DNA of 64,000 nucleotides, taken from positions 2,560,501 to 2,624,500 of the forward strand of contig NZ_CP013659.2 in assembly GCF_001465795.2 (NCBI RefSeq), written 5' to 3'. The translations under genes and the position numbers were made by a program. The notes beneath the pieces were generated by a model. The model was not told the origin of the DNA and did no database searches. It saw nothing but the letters and a program-made list of their open reading frames with translations. This document shows, piece after piece, positions 975 to 10,225 of this stretch. How positions within the stretch are numbered: the stretch's first letter is position 1; every line of letters begins with the position of its first letter. The stretch is from Planococcus rifietoensis. Its GTDB lineage: Bacteria > Bacillota > Bacilli > Bacillales_A > Planococcaceae.

Positions 975-2006
975 ATGATTCAATTTGAAGCAGTCAAGAA
1001 AACTTACGTATCCGGCAAGCAAGAAGTCCATGCGCTCAACGGCATTGATTTGACCGTCGAGACCGGGGAAATTTACGGCGTCATCGGATTTAGCGGCGCA
1101 GGGAAAAGCTCGTTGATCCGCACGGTGAATTTGCTCGAGCGCCCATCAACAGGACGCGTGCTCATCCATGGAGAGGACATTTCCACTTTAAGCGCACGCA
1201 AAATCCGCGATACACGAAAAGACATCGGCATGATCTTCCAGCATTTCAATTTGCTGAACTCGAAAACCGTACACCATAATATCGCGATGCCGCTGATTCT
1301 CGCCAAGACACCAAAAGCGGAAATTGACCGAAAAGTGGCGGAACTATTGGAGTTTGTCGGGCTTGCCGACCAAGCGAAAAAATACCCGGATCAATTATCC
1401 GGCGGGCAAAAGCAGCGCATCGGCATTGCAAGAGCACTCGCCACCAACCCGTCCATACTGCTATGCGATGAAGCAACGTCAGCGCTCGACCCGCAGACGA
1501 CCCAGTCCATCCTGGATCTGCTGCGCCGCATCAACCAGGAATACAACATCACCATCTTGCTCATCACCCACGAGATGGGCGTCATCCGGGAAATCTGCGA
1601 CAAAGTGGCCGTTCTCGAAGAAGGACGTGTCATCGAACAAGGCAGCGTATTTGAAGTGTTTACCAATCCCCAGCACGCGACGACGAAACGTTTCGTCCGT
1701 TCTGTCATGAACGATGAATTGCCAGATTCGCTCCTTGAGCAAATCCGCCACAACGACGGGACACGCCCAATCTACCGGGTGCAGTTTACCGGGAATTCAG
1801 TCGGCCAGCCATTCATGTCACGGGTTTCACGCGAATTCCAGCTCGATTTGAATGTTTTGTTCGGCAACATTACAGAACTTCAAGGCATTCCATACGGCAA
1901 CTTGATTGTGGAGTTCGACGGCGCTCATGCAGAAATCGACCGCGCACTCGCCTCGATCCGAAACGATAACATCCAAGTAGAGGAGGTGCAGCAACATGCA
2001 GGTTGA
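975..2006 (+). CDS. metN: Methionine ABC transporter ATP-binding protein MetN
   Basis: This 343-residue protein is the ATPase that powers methionine import through MetI with MetQ as binding protein. Walker A GFSGAGKSS is near residue 37, the signature LSGGQKQR near 140, Walker B LLCDEATSALD near 162 and the switch His in LLITHEMG. The last roughly 100 residues match the NIL regulatory domain that senses intracellular methionine in MetN proteins. The ATG follows ACAGGAGGG. metI starts inside its last codons (overlap 1996-2006). The operon is behind a SAM riboswitch. Confidence 0.95.
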   Translation: MIQFEAVKKTYVSGKQEVHALNGIDLTVETGEIYGVIGFSGAGKSSLIRTVNLLERPSTGRVLIHGEDISTLSARKIRDTRKDIGMIFQHFNLLNSKTVHHNIAMPLILAKTPKAEIDRKVAELLEFVGLADQAKKYPDQLSGGQKQRIGIARALATNPSILLCDEATSALDPQTTQSILDLLRRINQEYNITILLITHEMGVIREICDKVAVLEEGRVIEQGSVFEVFTNPQHATTKRFVRSVMNDELPDSLLEQIRHNDGTRPIYRVQFTGNSVGQPFMSRVSREFQLDLNVLFGNITELQGIPYGNLIVEFDGAHAEIDRALASIRNDNIQVEEVQQHAG

Positions 2007-2646
2007 TCAATCGCAAATTCTAGAAGCTTTATGGGAGACGCTTTACATGACGGGTGCATCATTCGTTTTCTCGCTCTTCATCGGCTTGCCGCTCGGCATC
2101 TTGCTGGTCGTCACACGAAAAGGCCACCTGCTCGAAAATGAAGCCGTATTTAACGTATTGAACATCGTCATCAATATCTTCCGTTCGGTTCCGTTCATCA
2201 TCTTGATGGTCGCCATCATTCCACTAACGCGCATCATTGTCGGCACATCGATCGGCACAGCCGCAGCCATCGTGCCATTGGTATTTTATGCTGGGCCTTA
2301 CATCGCCCGACTCATCGAGAATTCATTGCTCGAAGTCGATAAAGGCGTCATCGAAGCAGCCCAGGCGATGGGCGCTTCTCCCGGCCAGATCATTTTCCGC
2401 TTCCTTATCCCGGAAGCGCTCAGCTCCCTTGTCCTCGCATTGACCATCGCTATCGTCGGCTTGATCGGCGCATCCGCAATGGCTGGCGCGATTGGAGGCG
2501 GCGGACTCGGCGACTTGGCCATCACTTACGGATATCAGCGCTTCGACACGGTGGTCATGCTCTTGACTGTTGCCATTCTGGTCGTCCTTGTCCAAGGCGT
2601 TCAATCACTCGGCAACCTCATGTCCCGCAGAGTACGCCGGAGCTAA
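1996..2646 (+). CDS. metI: Methionine ABC transporter permease MetI
   Basis: This 216-residue integral membrane protein has about five hydrophobic segments. The binding-protein-dependent permease loop (EAAQAMGASPGQIIFRFLIP, around residues 118-137) contacts the ATPase MetN. Length and sequence fit the MetI family, which forms the methionine channel in the cytoplasmic membrane. The ATG overlaps the end of metN by 11 bases, indicating translational coupling. Confidence 0.95.
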   Translation: MQVDQSQILEALWETLYMTGASFVFSLFIGLPLGILLVVTRKGHLLENEAVFNVLNIVINIFRSVPFIILMVAIIPLTRIIVGTSIGTAAAIVPLVFYAGPYIARLIENSLLEVDKGVIEAAQAMGASPGQIIFRFLIPEALSSLVLALTIAIVGLIGASAMAGAIGGGGLGDLAITYGYQRFDTVVMLLTVAILVVLVQGVQSLGNLMSRRVRRS

Positions 2647-2731
2647 GTCCTTTAATTCACGTTAAACAAACTCAATAAGGTGGTTCATTCACCAGCACCA
2701 CTACTTTAAAAACCCATTGGAGGATTTCATC

Positions 2732-3565
2732 ATGAAAAAAATTACAGCTCTTTTAGCAACAGCAGGCATTGCCGCGCTTCTCGGCGCATGTGGAGACGAT
2801 AGCTCAGCCGGCGAAACCACGAAAGTGACACTTGGTATCAGTGGATCGGACACGACCATTTGGGATTATGTCGGCGACAAAGCCGCTGAAGAAGGCATCG
2901 AGCTCGACATCATCACGTTCTCGGATTATGTGGCGCCTAACTTGGCACTCGCTGAAGGCGAACTCGACTTGAATGCCTTCCAGACCATCTCGTATTTCGA
3001 TGAGTTTGTCGAAGAGCATAATGTCGACATCGTGCCGATCGGCTCTACCGTCATTGCGCCGATGGGCTTGTATTCCGATAAATACGAATCGATCGAAGAA
3101 CTTCCAGAAGGCGCCCAAATCGCGATGCCGAATGAAGCAACCAACATGGGCCGTGCACTCCTCTTGCTCGATGAATCCGGGCTCATCACGTTATCCGACG
3201 ATGCCGGGTTGACTGGAACGGAAGAAGACATCATCGACAACCCGAAAAACATTGAAGTTGTCCCGATGACTTCCGCCCATACGCCGCGCGCTATGGCTGA
3301 CGTCGCTGCTTCCATCGTCAACAACGGCATTGCAGTGGATGCAGGATTGAATCCGACAGAAGATCCAATTGCCCGTGAAAGCGATACGGCAAAACCTTAT
3401 ATCAACTTGATCGCCGCGCAAAAAGGCCAGGAAGATAACGAAGCGTATCAGCGCATCGTTGAATTGTACCAGGAAGAAGACACAGCTGAATTTGTCATCG
3501 AGCACACAGAAGGCGCTCAAATCCCGACTTTTGTTTCGGTTGAAGAATTAGTCGATTACCAATAA
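2732..3565 (+). CDS. metQ: Methionine-binding lipoprotein MetQ
   Basis: This 277-residue NlpA/MetQ-type substrate-binding lipoprotein captures methionine outside the membrane for MetN/MetI. The ATG at 2732 is preferred over an in-frame TTG at 2717 because GGAGG lies between them. The start MKKITALLATAGIAALLGAC is a signal peptide with lipobox LGAC. Family features include DYVAPNLALAEGELDLNAFQ and the PNEATNMGRAL region around the binding cleft. It is the third gene of the SAM-riboswitch operon, 85 bases after metI. Confidence 0.94.
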   Translation: MKKITALLATAGIAALLGACGDDSSAGETTKVTLGISGSDTTIWDYVGDKAAEEGIELDIITFSDYVAPNLALAEGELDLNAFQTISYFDEFVEEHNVDIVPIGSTVIAPMGLYSDKYESIEELPEGAQIAMPNEATNMGRALLLLDESGLITLSDDAGLTGTEEDIIDNPKNIEVVPMTSAHTPRAMADVAASIVNNGIAVDAGLNPTEDPIARESDTAKPYINLIAAQKGQEDNEAYQRIVELYQEEDTAEFVIEHTEGAQIPTFVSVEELVDYQ

Positions 3566-7082: not shown

Positions 7083-8027
7083 TTAAAATTCGATACGTTC
7101 GATTTTTGCGCCAGTCGATTCGACGCCTTTCATGTATTTGATGCGTTTCTGAACAGCGGTTTCGTTCACTTGCTCATCCGCATGGTATGAAGAACGAACC
7201 ATCGGGCCGGCCTCGCAATGCTTGAAACCTTTGGCCAATGCGATTTCCTTCAATTCCTGGAATTCATCGGGGTGGTAATAACGGACGACATCCAAATGCT
7301 TCAATGTCGGCTGCAAATATTGTCCGATCGTCATGATGTCGACTTTGTGCGCCAATAAATCATCCATCGCTTCGATAATCTCTTCTCTCGTTTCACCAAG
7401 TCCGACCATGATGCTCGACTTCGTCGGGACATGCGGCGCGATTTCCTTGACCCGCAATAGCAATTCCAGCGAACGGTCGTAGGTAGCTCTTGCACGGACG
7501 CGCTTTGTCAGGCGGCGCACCGTTTCGATATTGTGGTTGAAAATATCCGGCTCGCTGCTCATTAACATATGCAGGCTTTCGTAATCGCCTTTCATATCGG
7601 ACGGCAAGATTTCAACAGTGGTTTCCGGCATTTTCCGGTGAATGGCACGGACAGTTTCCGCAAAAACTGCAGCTCCGCCGTCTTTCAAATCATCACGGGC
7701 GACCGCTGTGACAACGACATGCTTCAAGTTCATGATCTCCGTCGATTCCGCTACACGCTCCGGCTCGCCCCAATCCAGTTCGTTCGGCAACCCAGTCTTG
7801 ACGGCGCAGAACCGGCACGCTCTTGTACACGTATCCCCCAGGATCATGAAAGTCGCGGTGCGGCGTTCGCTCCAGCATTCATGGATGTTCGGGCATCTGG
7901 CTTCCTCACATACCGTGTTCAAATTTTTCTCCCGCATTAGTTTCTTCAGATCGTTATAAGTTTCATTGGTGTTTAGTTTCACTTTCAGCCATTCGGGTTT
8001 ACGTTCACGCTGCTTTGCTTTTGTCAT
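7083..8027 (-). CDS. lipA: Lipoyl synthase LipA
   Basis: This 314-residue radical-SAM enzyme inserts two sulfurs into octanoyl groups on lipoyl-domain or GcvH proteins. The auxiliary cluster motif [12 protein letters not shown] is near residue 41, the radical-[11 protein letters not shown] near 67, and the C-terminal RSSYHADE supplies the conserved Ser ligand. The start ATG at 8027 overlaps the stop of lipM by four bases (ATGA), so the genes are coupled. A longer in-frame start upstream would lie inside lipM and has no better ribosome site. Confidence 0.96.
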
Positions 8028-8860
8028 CGCATAAGTTCCCCTTTCTCTTCTCGTCGGTGGTTCCATTCTTCGCTCGCGTATTTGGCTTCGAGCACGCGCA
8101 CGTCTTCCAATAGTTCAGCTGGTGGTTCGAATTTTTCCAGGCGGATGCCAAGCCCGGTTTCGAATCCAGACTTGAATGCCTGTTGCACTTCTTCCATGCT
8201 TGCCGGTTCCCCAATCAGCTCGTTGATCGCGACGGCGCGTGTGCGGAAAGCTTGTCGCGCCCTTTCCTTCACCGCTTCGCTCGGGTACACGAACAATTCG
8301 AACAACCGATTTTCATCCAGCTGCAGCGGAATCGAGCCGTGCTGCAAAATGATGCCTTGTTTTCTTGTCTGTGCGCTGCCGGCCGCTTTTCGACCCTCAA
8401 CAGTCAGTTCATGCCAAGACGGTTCTTCAAAGCATACCGCTGAAGATTCTTTCGAAGGCTTCTTCTCCGCAGCTAGTTGTGCTTGAATCCCTAAATTGCG
8501 GTAACCTTCAAGCAAGCCTAGGGAAATGACCAAATACGCTTCTTTAACTGATTTCGGCATGGATGGATGATGTTCCGGAATCACTACGCTATAAGTCAAT
8601 TCCTGATCGTGGAGTACGGCTTTTCCGCCGGTCTGCCTCCTGACCAGGGGGATGCCCATTTGCGCAGCTCGTTCAAGATCGATGCTGCCATTCAGTTTCT
8701 GGAAAAATCCCACTGAAATACCGGCTGGCGACCATCCATAAAATCGGAGCACAGGCTTCATACCCGTTTTGCGCTGCCAGTTCATCAATGCTTCGTCCAT
8801 TGCCATATTGTATGCCGGCGTGCAAAGCCCCGACTCCATATAGCCCCATGTTTCCTCCAA
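8024..8860 (-). CDS. lipM: Octanoyltransferase LipM
   Basis: This 278-residue enzyme of the Bacillus LipM type moves octanoate from acyl carrier protein to GcvH. Family features are ETWGYMESG at the N-terminus, [18 protein letters not shown] near residue 74, the nucleophile Cys in [14 protein letters not shown] (about residue 143) and LQHGSIPL. The start is TTG at 8860: a stop codon lies nine bases upstream in frame, and GAGAGGAG (8871-8878 on the other strand) is correctly spaced. An ATG six bases inside is out of frame. It heads the lipM-lipA pair behind a TPP riboswitch and terminator. Confidence 0.92.
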
Positions 8861-8903
8861 AATGTCTCAACTCCTCTCAGCTTATGCATGACCCTAAAGC
8901 CCA

Positions 8904-8938
8904 TAAAAAAACACCGCTTTCCCATGGGGAAGCGGTGT
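8904..8938 (-). terminator. Terminator between TPP riboswitch and lipM
   Basis: On the minus strand ACACCGCTT (8930-8938) pairs with AAGCGGTGT (8911-8919) and is followed by seven T. It is the likely expression platform of the riboswitch 25 bases upstream. Confidence 0.88.
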
Positions 8939-8962
8939 ATGCAGACAAAAGGAAGCATACGT

Positions 8963-9054
8963 ACCACTTCCCTACGCTGGCATGGTCCAGATCAGGTTCA
9001 AGGGGTCCAAGCATTCGCTCGTCTCAGCCAGTCAATTCCGGCTCCCCCAGTGGT
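8963..9054 (-). ncRNA. TPP (THI-box) riboswitch upstream of lipM-lipA
   Basis: Minus-strand reading: ACCACT ... GGCTGAGACGAGC ... GGACCCCTTGAACCTGATCT ... GGACCATGCCAGCGTAGGGA ... AGTGGT. CTGAGA, CCTTGAACCTGATCTGG and ATGCCAGCGTAGGGAA are the hallmark TPP aptamer elements, and ACCACT/AGTGGT closes P1 exactly. The next gene in this direction is lipM; no thiamine gene intervenes. The neighbouring 8861-9205 stretch holds only this riboswitch, its terminator, and the terminator of the next unit. Confidence 0.95.
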
Positions 9055-9154
9055 CAGCTATGTATAGTTCTTCTCGAGCTTATCATTTCTTTTAAGAAAT
9101 CTCAATATACTAAATAGTATTTTCTTTATATTTTTATCCAATTTATTCAAAAAT

Positions 9155-9203
9155 ATCCAAAAAAAGCTTTCCTTATGCGTTTTGCTGATAGGGAAAGCTT
9201 TAT
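9155..9203 (-). terminator. Terminator of the V4R/STAS gene
   Basis: GGAAAGCTTT (9192-9201) pairs with its complement at 9163-9172, and on the minus strand a T-run follows. It ends the transcript of the gene at 9206-10225, upstream of the TPP leader. Confidence 0.75.
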
Positions 9204-9205
9204 TA

Positions 9206-10225
9206 TTAAATAATCGTCTTGCCGTTCTGTGCCAAAGCAAAGTGGATGCTGTGTTGAAGTGTACGGAAGCATTCATAGCCAGAGAGGTCTACGCCCGCTT
9301 CTGTAATCGTCATGCTGGTGTGCGGCGAAATGCCGGCCAGCACCGTTTTCGTGCCGATCAAATTCGCGGCAGACCCTAATTTTTCGATTAGCATCGCCGC
9401 ATGCTGGTTGAAGCTTTCATTCAGCCCGGTCAAATCGAGGAGCAAGTAACGCGCTTTGTATTTCGGCAAATTCTCAAGCGTTTTGGTCAATAACTCTTCG
9501 GCACGCGCTTCATCATAGCGTCCGAGAAGCGGAACGACTACAATATCTTCGAGCACTGGAATAAGCGGCGAAGAAATTTCCCGGATCATGTCATGGAGAT
9601 CCGCTGTCTTTTCATCCACCAGCTGTTCGAGTTCACGGATTTTCTCCGATTCTTTGCGGCGTGCCAGCGCATGGATGTTCTTGTCAATCGTCTCGTCTGA
9701 CGGGAAATAGCGAATCAGGCATTCGTCATGCCCTTCGATCTGCGAGTGGACTACTTCATACCATATGCTGCGGTCCAGAAGCGAGCTGAAGATCCCTGCA
9801 TAATGGGCCGGCAAAAAACTGCCGCCGGTCTTTTTTCCCTGTGCCAGATTAATCTGGTATTCCCAGCTATTTTTCAGCGTCACTTCCAAGGTGCCTGCTT
9901 CCACATCCAGGTTATGGATAGCAGCCACTCCCCAACCGGCCGATGCGTATGTATTGGTAATGAGGTCGGATGCTTTCATCACCGAAACCCCGCCCATCCC
10001 GTGGAAATAATCCCCGACTACCTGGCCTTGGCGAAACCCTGTCGACTCCAAAACGACAGCTGCCGCTTCTTCTCCAGAAATTTCCTCGATGGAATCAAAG
10101 AACATTTTCATTGCAGTGGAAGTCCAAAACAGTACAGAATTTTGGCCTTCGAACAGGAAGCGCCCTTGCGAGAGGTCCCATTCAAAATCCAGGCCGCCCA
10201 CGTTCACCTTTGTTTGTTGAGTCAT
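9206..10225 (-). CDS. V4R-like and STAS domain protein (RsbR-like)
   Basis: This 339-residue cytosolic protein is likely a sensor or regulator. Residues about 20-170 resemble a V4R (4-vinyl reductase-like) ligand-binding domain (ending LPAHYAGIFSSLLDRSIWYE). A linker helix around KESEKIRELEQLVDEKTADL joins it to a C-terminal STAS domain (VVVPLLGRYDEARAEEL, LLLDLTGLN, GISPHTSMTITEAGVDLSG) as in RsbR-type stressosome proteins. The ATG at 10225 follows AAGGAGG; an upstream in-frame extension lacks a ribosome site. Partners (RsbS, RsbT) are not in the window. The stressosome role is inference. Confidence 0.7.
   Translation of the reverse strand: MTQQTKVNVGGLDFEWDLSQGRFLFEGQNSVLFWTSTAMKMFFDSIEEISGEEAAAVVLESTGFRQGQVVGDYFHGMGGVSVMKASDLITNTYASAGWGVAAIHNLDVEAGTLEVTLKNSWEYQINLAQGKKTGGSFLPAHYAGIFSSLLDRSIWYEVVHSQIEGHDECLIRYFPSDETIDKNIHALARRKESEKIRELEQLVDEKTADLHDMIREISSPLIPVLEDIVVVPLLGRYDEARAEELLTKTLENLPKYKARYLLLDLTGLNESFNQHAAMLIEKLGSAANLIGTKTVLAGISPHTSMTITEAGVDLSGYECFRTLQHSIHFALAQNGKTII

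Follow-up and report, generated by a model that had tools for sequence, protein, structure and literature searches.

The window, a 64,000-nucleotide stretch of Planococcus rifietoensis DNA (contig NZ_CP013659.2), contains on its minus strand two overlapping genes of lipoate assembly, lipM and lipA, preceded by a leader with the parts of a TPP riboswitch. The features of this locus are as follows.

7083-8033, minus strand: lipA, lipoyl synthase (TIGR00510), overlapping the end of lipM
8024-8860, minus strand: lipM, predicted octanoyltransferase of 278 aa with a TTG start (Pfam LplA-B_cat; Cys143)
8871-8877, minus strand: ribosome-binding site AGAGGAG, identified by eye
8905-8938, minus strand: intrinsic terminator, with the hairpin at 8911-8938 and a run of seven T at 8905-8911 (dG -18.0 kcal/mol)
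8927-8936, minus strand: 5' arm of the terminator, ACCGCUUCCC, common to the antiterminator (pairing and fold computations)
8963-8972, minus strand: aptamer 3' strand, GGGAAGUGGU, one half of the antiterminator; it contains the 3' side of P1 and pairs with 8927-8936
8952-9058, minus strand: TPP riboswitch aptamer (THI element; Rfam RF00059, 78.6 bits, E 7.9e-14)
9077-9105, minus strand: putative promoter, with a -35 element TTGAGA (9100-9105), a 17 nt spacer and a -10 element TAAGCT (9077-9082), identified by eye

LipA scores above the cut-off of the NCBIfam lipA equivalog model TIGR00510 (402 versus 310 bits), while LipM lies above the cut-offs of the Pfam models PF21948 (129 bits) and PF03099 and above that of no NCBIfam model. 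Its Cys143, which we take to be the catalytic Cys, is invariant among 11 aligned relatives. Two further LplA-B_cat proteins are encoded in the genome, a lipoate--protein ligase of 330 aa (TIGR00545, 467 versus 280 bits) and a LipL-type octanoyl-[GcvH]:protein transferase of 273 aa (NF053589, 408.7 versus 400 bits). The window LipM falls below both the ligase and the LipL-type cut-offs and, as the other two proteins are the ligase and the LipL type, it is left as the candidate LipM of the B. subtilis scheme, a predicted octanoyltransferase. It groups with the lipM genes of other Bacillales in a tree of LipM sequences alone, and the closest named LipM among the best 80 of 560 relatives is that of Planococcus citreus (97% identity). 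The genome thus resembles the LipM-LipA-LipL assembly of B. subtilis and S. aureus, the roles in which follow the relevant parts of PMC5049849 and PMC10332631, in its LipA, LipL-type transferase and lipoate--protein ligase. It differs from this scheme in that lipM adjoins lipA rather than gcvPB and is preceded by a TPP leader.

A complete TPP aptamer with the P1 helix ACCACT/AGTGGT, followed by an intrinsic terminator and with no thiamine gene before lipM-lipA, had been proposed in a first-pass annotation made by reading the DNA, and all three points hold. In a covariance search (cmscan), the aptamer matches RF00059 over model positions 1-105, against a gathering score of 54.3 bits; its P1 is as described, the terminator hairpin and T-run are in place, and no thiamine gene occurs between the aptamer and lipM-lipA. 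The span given in that annotation (8024-9054) left lipA and the putative promoter outside. Promoter-like elements were also seen by eye at the equivalent position in the leaders of close relatives and in L024. A consensus and fixed-pattern scan of 8840-9210 returned neither promoters nor terminators, the terminator probably being missed because of a bulge in its stem. The other four TPP sites in the genome are located upstream of tenA-thiM-thiD-thiE-thiW, a gene for an NMT1/THI5-like binding protein, a gene for a YkoF protein and thiT. The usual though not defining trait of a TPP riboswitch, a thiamine-gene target, is thus absent at this leader, where lipM-lipA is the sole target, whereas the other four sites precede thiamine-related genes. 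The window riboswitch is an ordinary RF00059 member and represents a known class with a new target.

The aptamer 3' strand and the terminator 5' arm are complementary (duplex dG -18.6), and the two possible partners of this arm give rise to alternative structures. The minimum free energy fold of the free leader contains the antiterminator (-61.2 kcal/mol; z -2.74, with an equally stable fold in one of 200 shuffles), while enforcing the aptamer pairs gives the terminator (-58.7). At transcript lengths of 131-143 the antiterminated fold is ahead by 4.9-8.4 kcal/mol, and antiterminator and terminator are mutually exclusive in the computed folds, making up the predicted expression platform. An OFF switch is predicted from this ability of the aptamer 3' strand to sequester the terminator arm, and on these models TPP very probably favours termination and turns lipM-lipA off. 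The tenA leader of this genome shows the same terminator/antiterminator design. Both elements are found in all 32 lipM leaders compared (28 from the family, two from Jeotgalibacillus and two from Peribacillus deserti), the weakest terminator having a dG of -11.3. When the part behind the aptamer was shuffled (n=960), an equally good terminator arose in 95 cases and an antiterminator as well in 34, while such a terminator was found in none of 78 natural stretches of 130 nt upstream of lipM genes without TPP.

The predicted direction bears on the function first suggested for this arrangement. TPP and lipoate both serve the 2-oxoacid dehydrogenases, and the first-pass annotation had accordingly proposed that lipoate synthesis follows the supply of TPP, with E1 and E2 needing both cofactors. 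The shared enzymes speak for such matching, but it would need an ON switch, whereas an OFF switch is what the folds predict, as in the genome's tenA leader. With an OFF architecture, low TPP should raise lipM-lipA, which is opposite in sign to matched supply. Of the TPP-lipoate link, therefore, the tie of the leader to lipoate genes and its retention in relatives, together with the platform, stand, while the matching of supplies falls away and is very unlikely to account for the leader. If most lipM transcription came from a second promoter beyond the terminator, the switch would be marginal; this promoter would find room in the 43-59 nt between the T-run and the start codon of the window-like leaders and in the 104-125 nt of those of P. 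deserti. This distance is, however, just 22-27 nt in 13 of the 32 leaders, and no promoter-like site was returned by the scan of 8840-9210, which also missed the putative upstream promoter; such a promoter is considered highly improbable.

For comparison among genomes, a window-type LipM was defined as one scoring at least 311 bits against the window LipM, the next in the family scoring at most 299, although a few of the latter are 53% identical to it. Window-type LipM (53-100% identity) is encoded in 26 of the 46 genomes of the genus and another LipM (46-52%) in the remaining 20. The aptamer precedes lipM, with lipA next, in all 26 window-type genomes. In one of these loci (L015, G019) lipA is split over two frames (residues 1-66 and 67-316), which points to a frameshift or to an error in the assembly. 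Divergence in the TPP group is much faster for LipM than for LipA, LipM identities being 53-65% where those of LipA are 83-89%. In all 20 other genomes, lipM is located within approximately 3.5 kb of gcvPB, which is never so in the 26, and no TPP aptamer was found in the 6.8-7.0 kb around their lipM genes or at the 19 lipA loci identified in these genomes. Among individual genomes, G045 has a canonical lipM and no lipA match at E 1e-60, a match to a group II intron domain (RF02001, 121.8 bits; L050, 6749-6901) lies close to the canonical lipM of G007, and the gcvPB match of G038 (C1:1578567-1580026) is in two pieces.

At least 256 of the 261 genomes of the family, which also make up the order-level genome set, encode a LipM at E 1e-30. 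Among the matches listed, window-type copies outside the genus occur only in two genomes of a second genus (g5), both with the aptamer. A TPP leader and a neighbouring lipA accompany all 28 window-type lipM loci of the family, and lipM and lipA are each present in single copy in these 28 genomes at the cut-offs used (among the matches listed). Among the 208 family genomes from other genera with a LipM in the matches listed, 21 were checked for TPP and none had it. A survey of lipM leaders in the family, as suggested in the first-pass annotation, thus finds the arrangement in relatives, and its origin as a lone accident is rejected by its presence in 28 of 28 window-type copies. Among the named loci, represented by the best 80 of 560 relatives, an aptamer occurs in 22 of the fetched stretches (24 hits, model R1). 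It lies directly before lipM in 20 of the 80, namely 16 of Planococcus/Planomicrobium, two of Jeotgalibacillus and two of P. deserti, and is not found by the same model in 58, the Halobacillus and Aquibacillus loci included. The lipM-lipA operons of Halobacillus, Sediminibacillus, Aquibacillus and their kin thus have the same gene pair and belong to the same LipM clade but, unlike the window, no TPP aptamer was found in them with model R1. None was found by this model in 68 further lipM loci, of which nine have lipA next. They comprise all 48 hits that a class search at E 1e-100 (57 of 398 drawn genomes) gave beyond the genus and g5, and 20 loci from other genera of the family, which together with L058 account for the 21 family genomes above. 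Two neighbouring arrangements were also observed. In Oceanobacillus massiliensis (L116, 3899-6782), a TPP aptamer is followed by a gene for a 3-oxoacyl-ACP reductase (NF006393, 413.5 versus 292 bits) and then by lipM-lipA, so that an acyl-ACP enzyme and the octanoyltransferase are encoded in one run of genes. In Scopulibacillus, the aptamer precedes a divergent gene, 35-36% identical to tenA, beside lipM.

The core columns of the aptamer are largely invariant among 28 aligned lipM-linked aptamers (26 distinct). Altogether 89.4% of the aptamer cells are paired, against 35.5-57.0% when the alignment is slid, and helices P1-P5 are each 81.5-93.1% paired. Cells changed on both sides of a pair number 16, against 5.5 in shuffles, none of 500 of which reached this value. 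The number of pairs with a change on both sides (five) was matched by 91 of 500 shuffles, and that of further pair types (15) by 478 of 500.

In a LipM tree of 108 rows, 27 with TPP, the TPP label requires three changes, of which at least two are demanded by starred branches; the tree was built by a quick method with SH-aLRT support only and contains several long branches. The TPP-labelled rows fall into a group of Planococcus and Jeotgalibacillus and a group of P. deserti and, because the rows around P. deserti are without TPP, two gains are the simpler reading. The lipM leader thus seems to have been gained separately in P. deserti, although change counts alone cannot separate gain from loss. 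Identities among the leaders point the same way, if only suggestively given such short sequences. When compared with eight other TPP leaders, the window lipM leader is closest to two Jeotgalibacillus tenA leaders (65 and 63%), as against 51% to the tenA leader of its own genome, and the P. deserti lipM leaders share 61-63% identity with the Scopulibacillus tenA leader and 44-48% with the window leader. In Jeotgalibacillus terrae and J. salarius, the gene order is TPP-lipM-lipA-TPP-tenA-thiM-thiD-thiE-thiW, the thi genes being named by similarity to the operon of the window genome in the former and by likeness of protein starts in the latter.

The capture of a leader, raised as an alternative in the first-pass annotation, is therefore partly right, in that the window leader resembles the Jeotgalibacillus tenA leaders more than that of its own genome, and in Jeotgalibacillus lipM-lipA lies directly before TPP-tenA. 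It has been considered whether the leader is simply a relic of this capture, a tenA-type leader that landed before lipM-lipA with little effect or no selective value. Its likeness to the Jeotgalibacillus tenA leaders, the adjacency of lipMA and TPP-tenA in that genus and the TPP-tenA-like gene divergent from lipM in Scopulibacillus are as expected of a relic. However, aptamer core, terminator and antiterminator have been kept while LipM fell to 53% identity, the leader is present in all 10 fetched stretches around the cassette (L161-L170), which represent approximately five neighbourhoods as judged by eye from the neighbouring proteins, and the TPP label changes at least twice on the LipM tree. 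A relic without function is thus unlikely, while capture is compatible with conservation thereafter.

At the gcv locus, gcvPB-yqhL-nrdJ has been kept and lipM is gone in all five genomes examined of the 26 with the window-type LipM (group A). In a tree built from gcvPB of 33 of the 46 genomes, of which 14 have the cassette, the label needs three changes, only one of which is forced by starred branches; none of 200 bootstrap trees (0%) has a single change. The gcv loci without lipM and the change counts together make it most likely that a TPP-lipM-lipA unit displaced separate lipM and lipA genes, by one or several entries. A relocation of the canonical lipM was rejected, as the group A LipM is separated by a branch of support 100 from the 20 canonical ones and gcvPB-yqhL-nrdJ is there without lipM in the five group A genomes. 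Loss of glycine cleavage as the reason was likewise rejected, with gcvPB present in all 46 genomes of the genus.

ThiC was found in none of the 46 genomes of the genus, with 13 of 14 controls positive, and in none of seven further genomes (six with TPP before lipMA and one with TPP before SDR-lipMA), so that none was found in the 33 genomes with TPP before lipM-lipA, one of which has a gene between. Full-length ThiG is encoded in nine of the 46, the genome of the window not among them. Without ThiC, TPP should report the uptake of thiamine or its precursors. ThiC is also absent from the 20 leaderless genomes of the genus and from all five lipMA genomes without TPP that were tested, while it is present in Scopulibacillus. 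Auxotrophy thus does not single out the genomes with TPP-lipMA, and thiamine auxotrophy as the sole cause was rejected, since it extends to genomes without the leader.

The leader is probably best explained as a working TPP OFF riboswitch on lipM-lipA transcription, in which TPP may stand as a proxy for vitamin-rich surroundings. When TPP is scarce, the aptamer 3' strand would pair with the terminator 5' arm, forming the antiterminator, and the polymerase would read into lipM-lipA. When TPP is bound, which we infer to occur in vivo together with termination, P1 would hold the aptamer 3' strand, the terminator would form and lipoate synthesis would fall. A cell without ThiC is expected to be incapable of making the thiamine pyrimidine, so that TPP would then signal uptake of thiamine or its precursors. 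In a vitamin-rich setting lipoate could be salvaged by the ligase encoded in the genome and the cost of LipA saved. That TPP serves as a sign of a setting with salvageable lipoate is a plausible reason for the switch, held at slightly below even chances. A broader reading, in which TPP acts as a general vitamin-supply signal, with a B1 riboswitch governing another cofactor through wiring apparently gained at least twice and a unit that displaced separate, unswitched lipM and lipA, is more tentative.

The same OFF design, giving more lipM-lipA at low TPP, also fits a compensatory role, in which scarcity of TPP would lead to more lipoylation of GcvH or E2, keeping up flux through complexes short of active E1 or feeding glycine cleavage, which depends on lipoate and not on TPP. 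The presence of gcvPB in every genome of the genus is in keeping with this, but the lipM genes beside gcvPB (20 of 20) have no TPP aptamer, and compensation appears rather unlikely.

TPP riboswitches are among the best-studied cofactor riboswitches and normally regulate the supply of their own cofactor. The window leader shares with the terminator-type TPP riboswitch (RF00059) before tenA both the aptamer and the logic of P1, antiterminator and terminator, and differs from known TPP riboswitches in that its target is lipoate assembly rather than thiamine synthesis, salvage or transport. Sun et al. 2013 (PMC3766115), in the sections of their regulon survey concerned, place TPP-regulated genes under thiamin biosynthesis and thiamin or precursor transporters, and the string 'lipo' has no hits in the main text of that survey. 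No report of TPP-riboswitch control of lipoate genes was found in the literature, within a scope that stops short of most subscription papers. If true, the conserved and apparently repeated control of lipoate synthesis by TPP would mean that one vitamin stands in as the signal for another or, alternatively, that the cofactors of E1 and E2 are cross-controlled with a sign unforeseen by simple matching.

Elsewhere in the window, two divergent SAM riboswitches are located at 428-542 on the minus strand and 730-842 on the plus strand (80.1 and 79.9 bits, respectively). As judged by eye, the former precedes a homocysteine-synthase-like gene at the edge of the window and the latter a metNIQ-like ABC transporter (975-3565).
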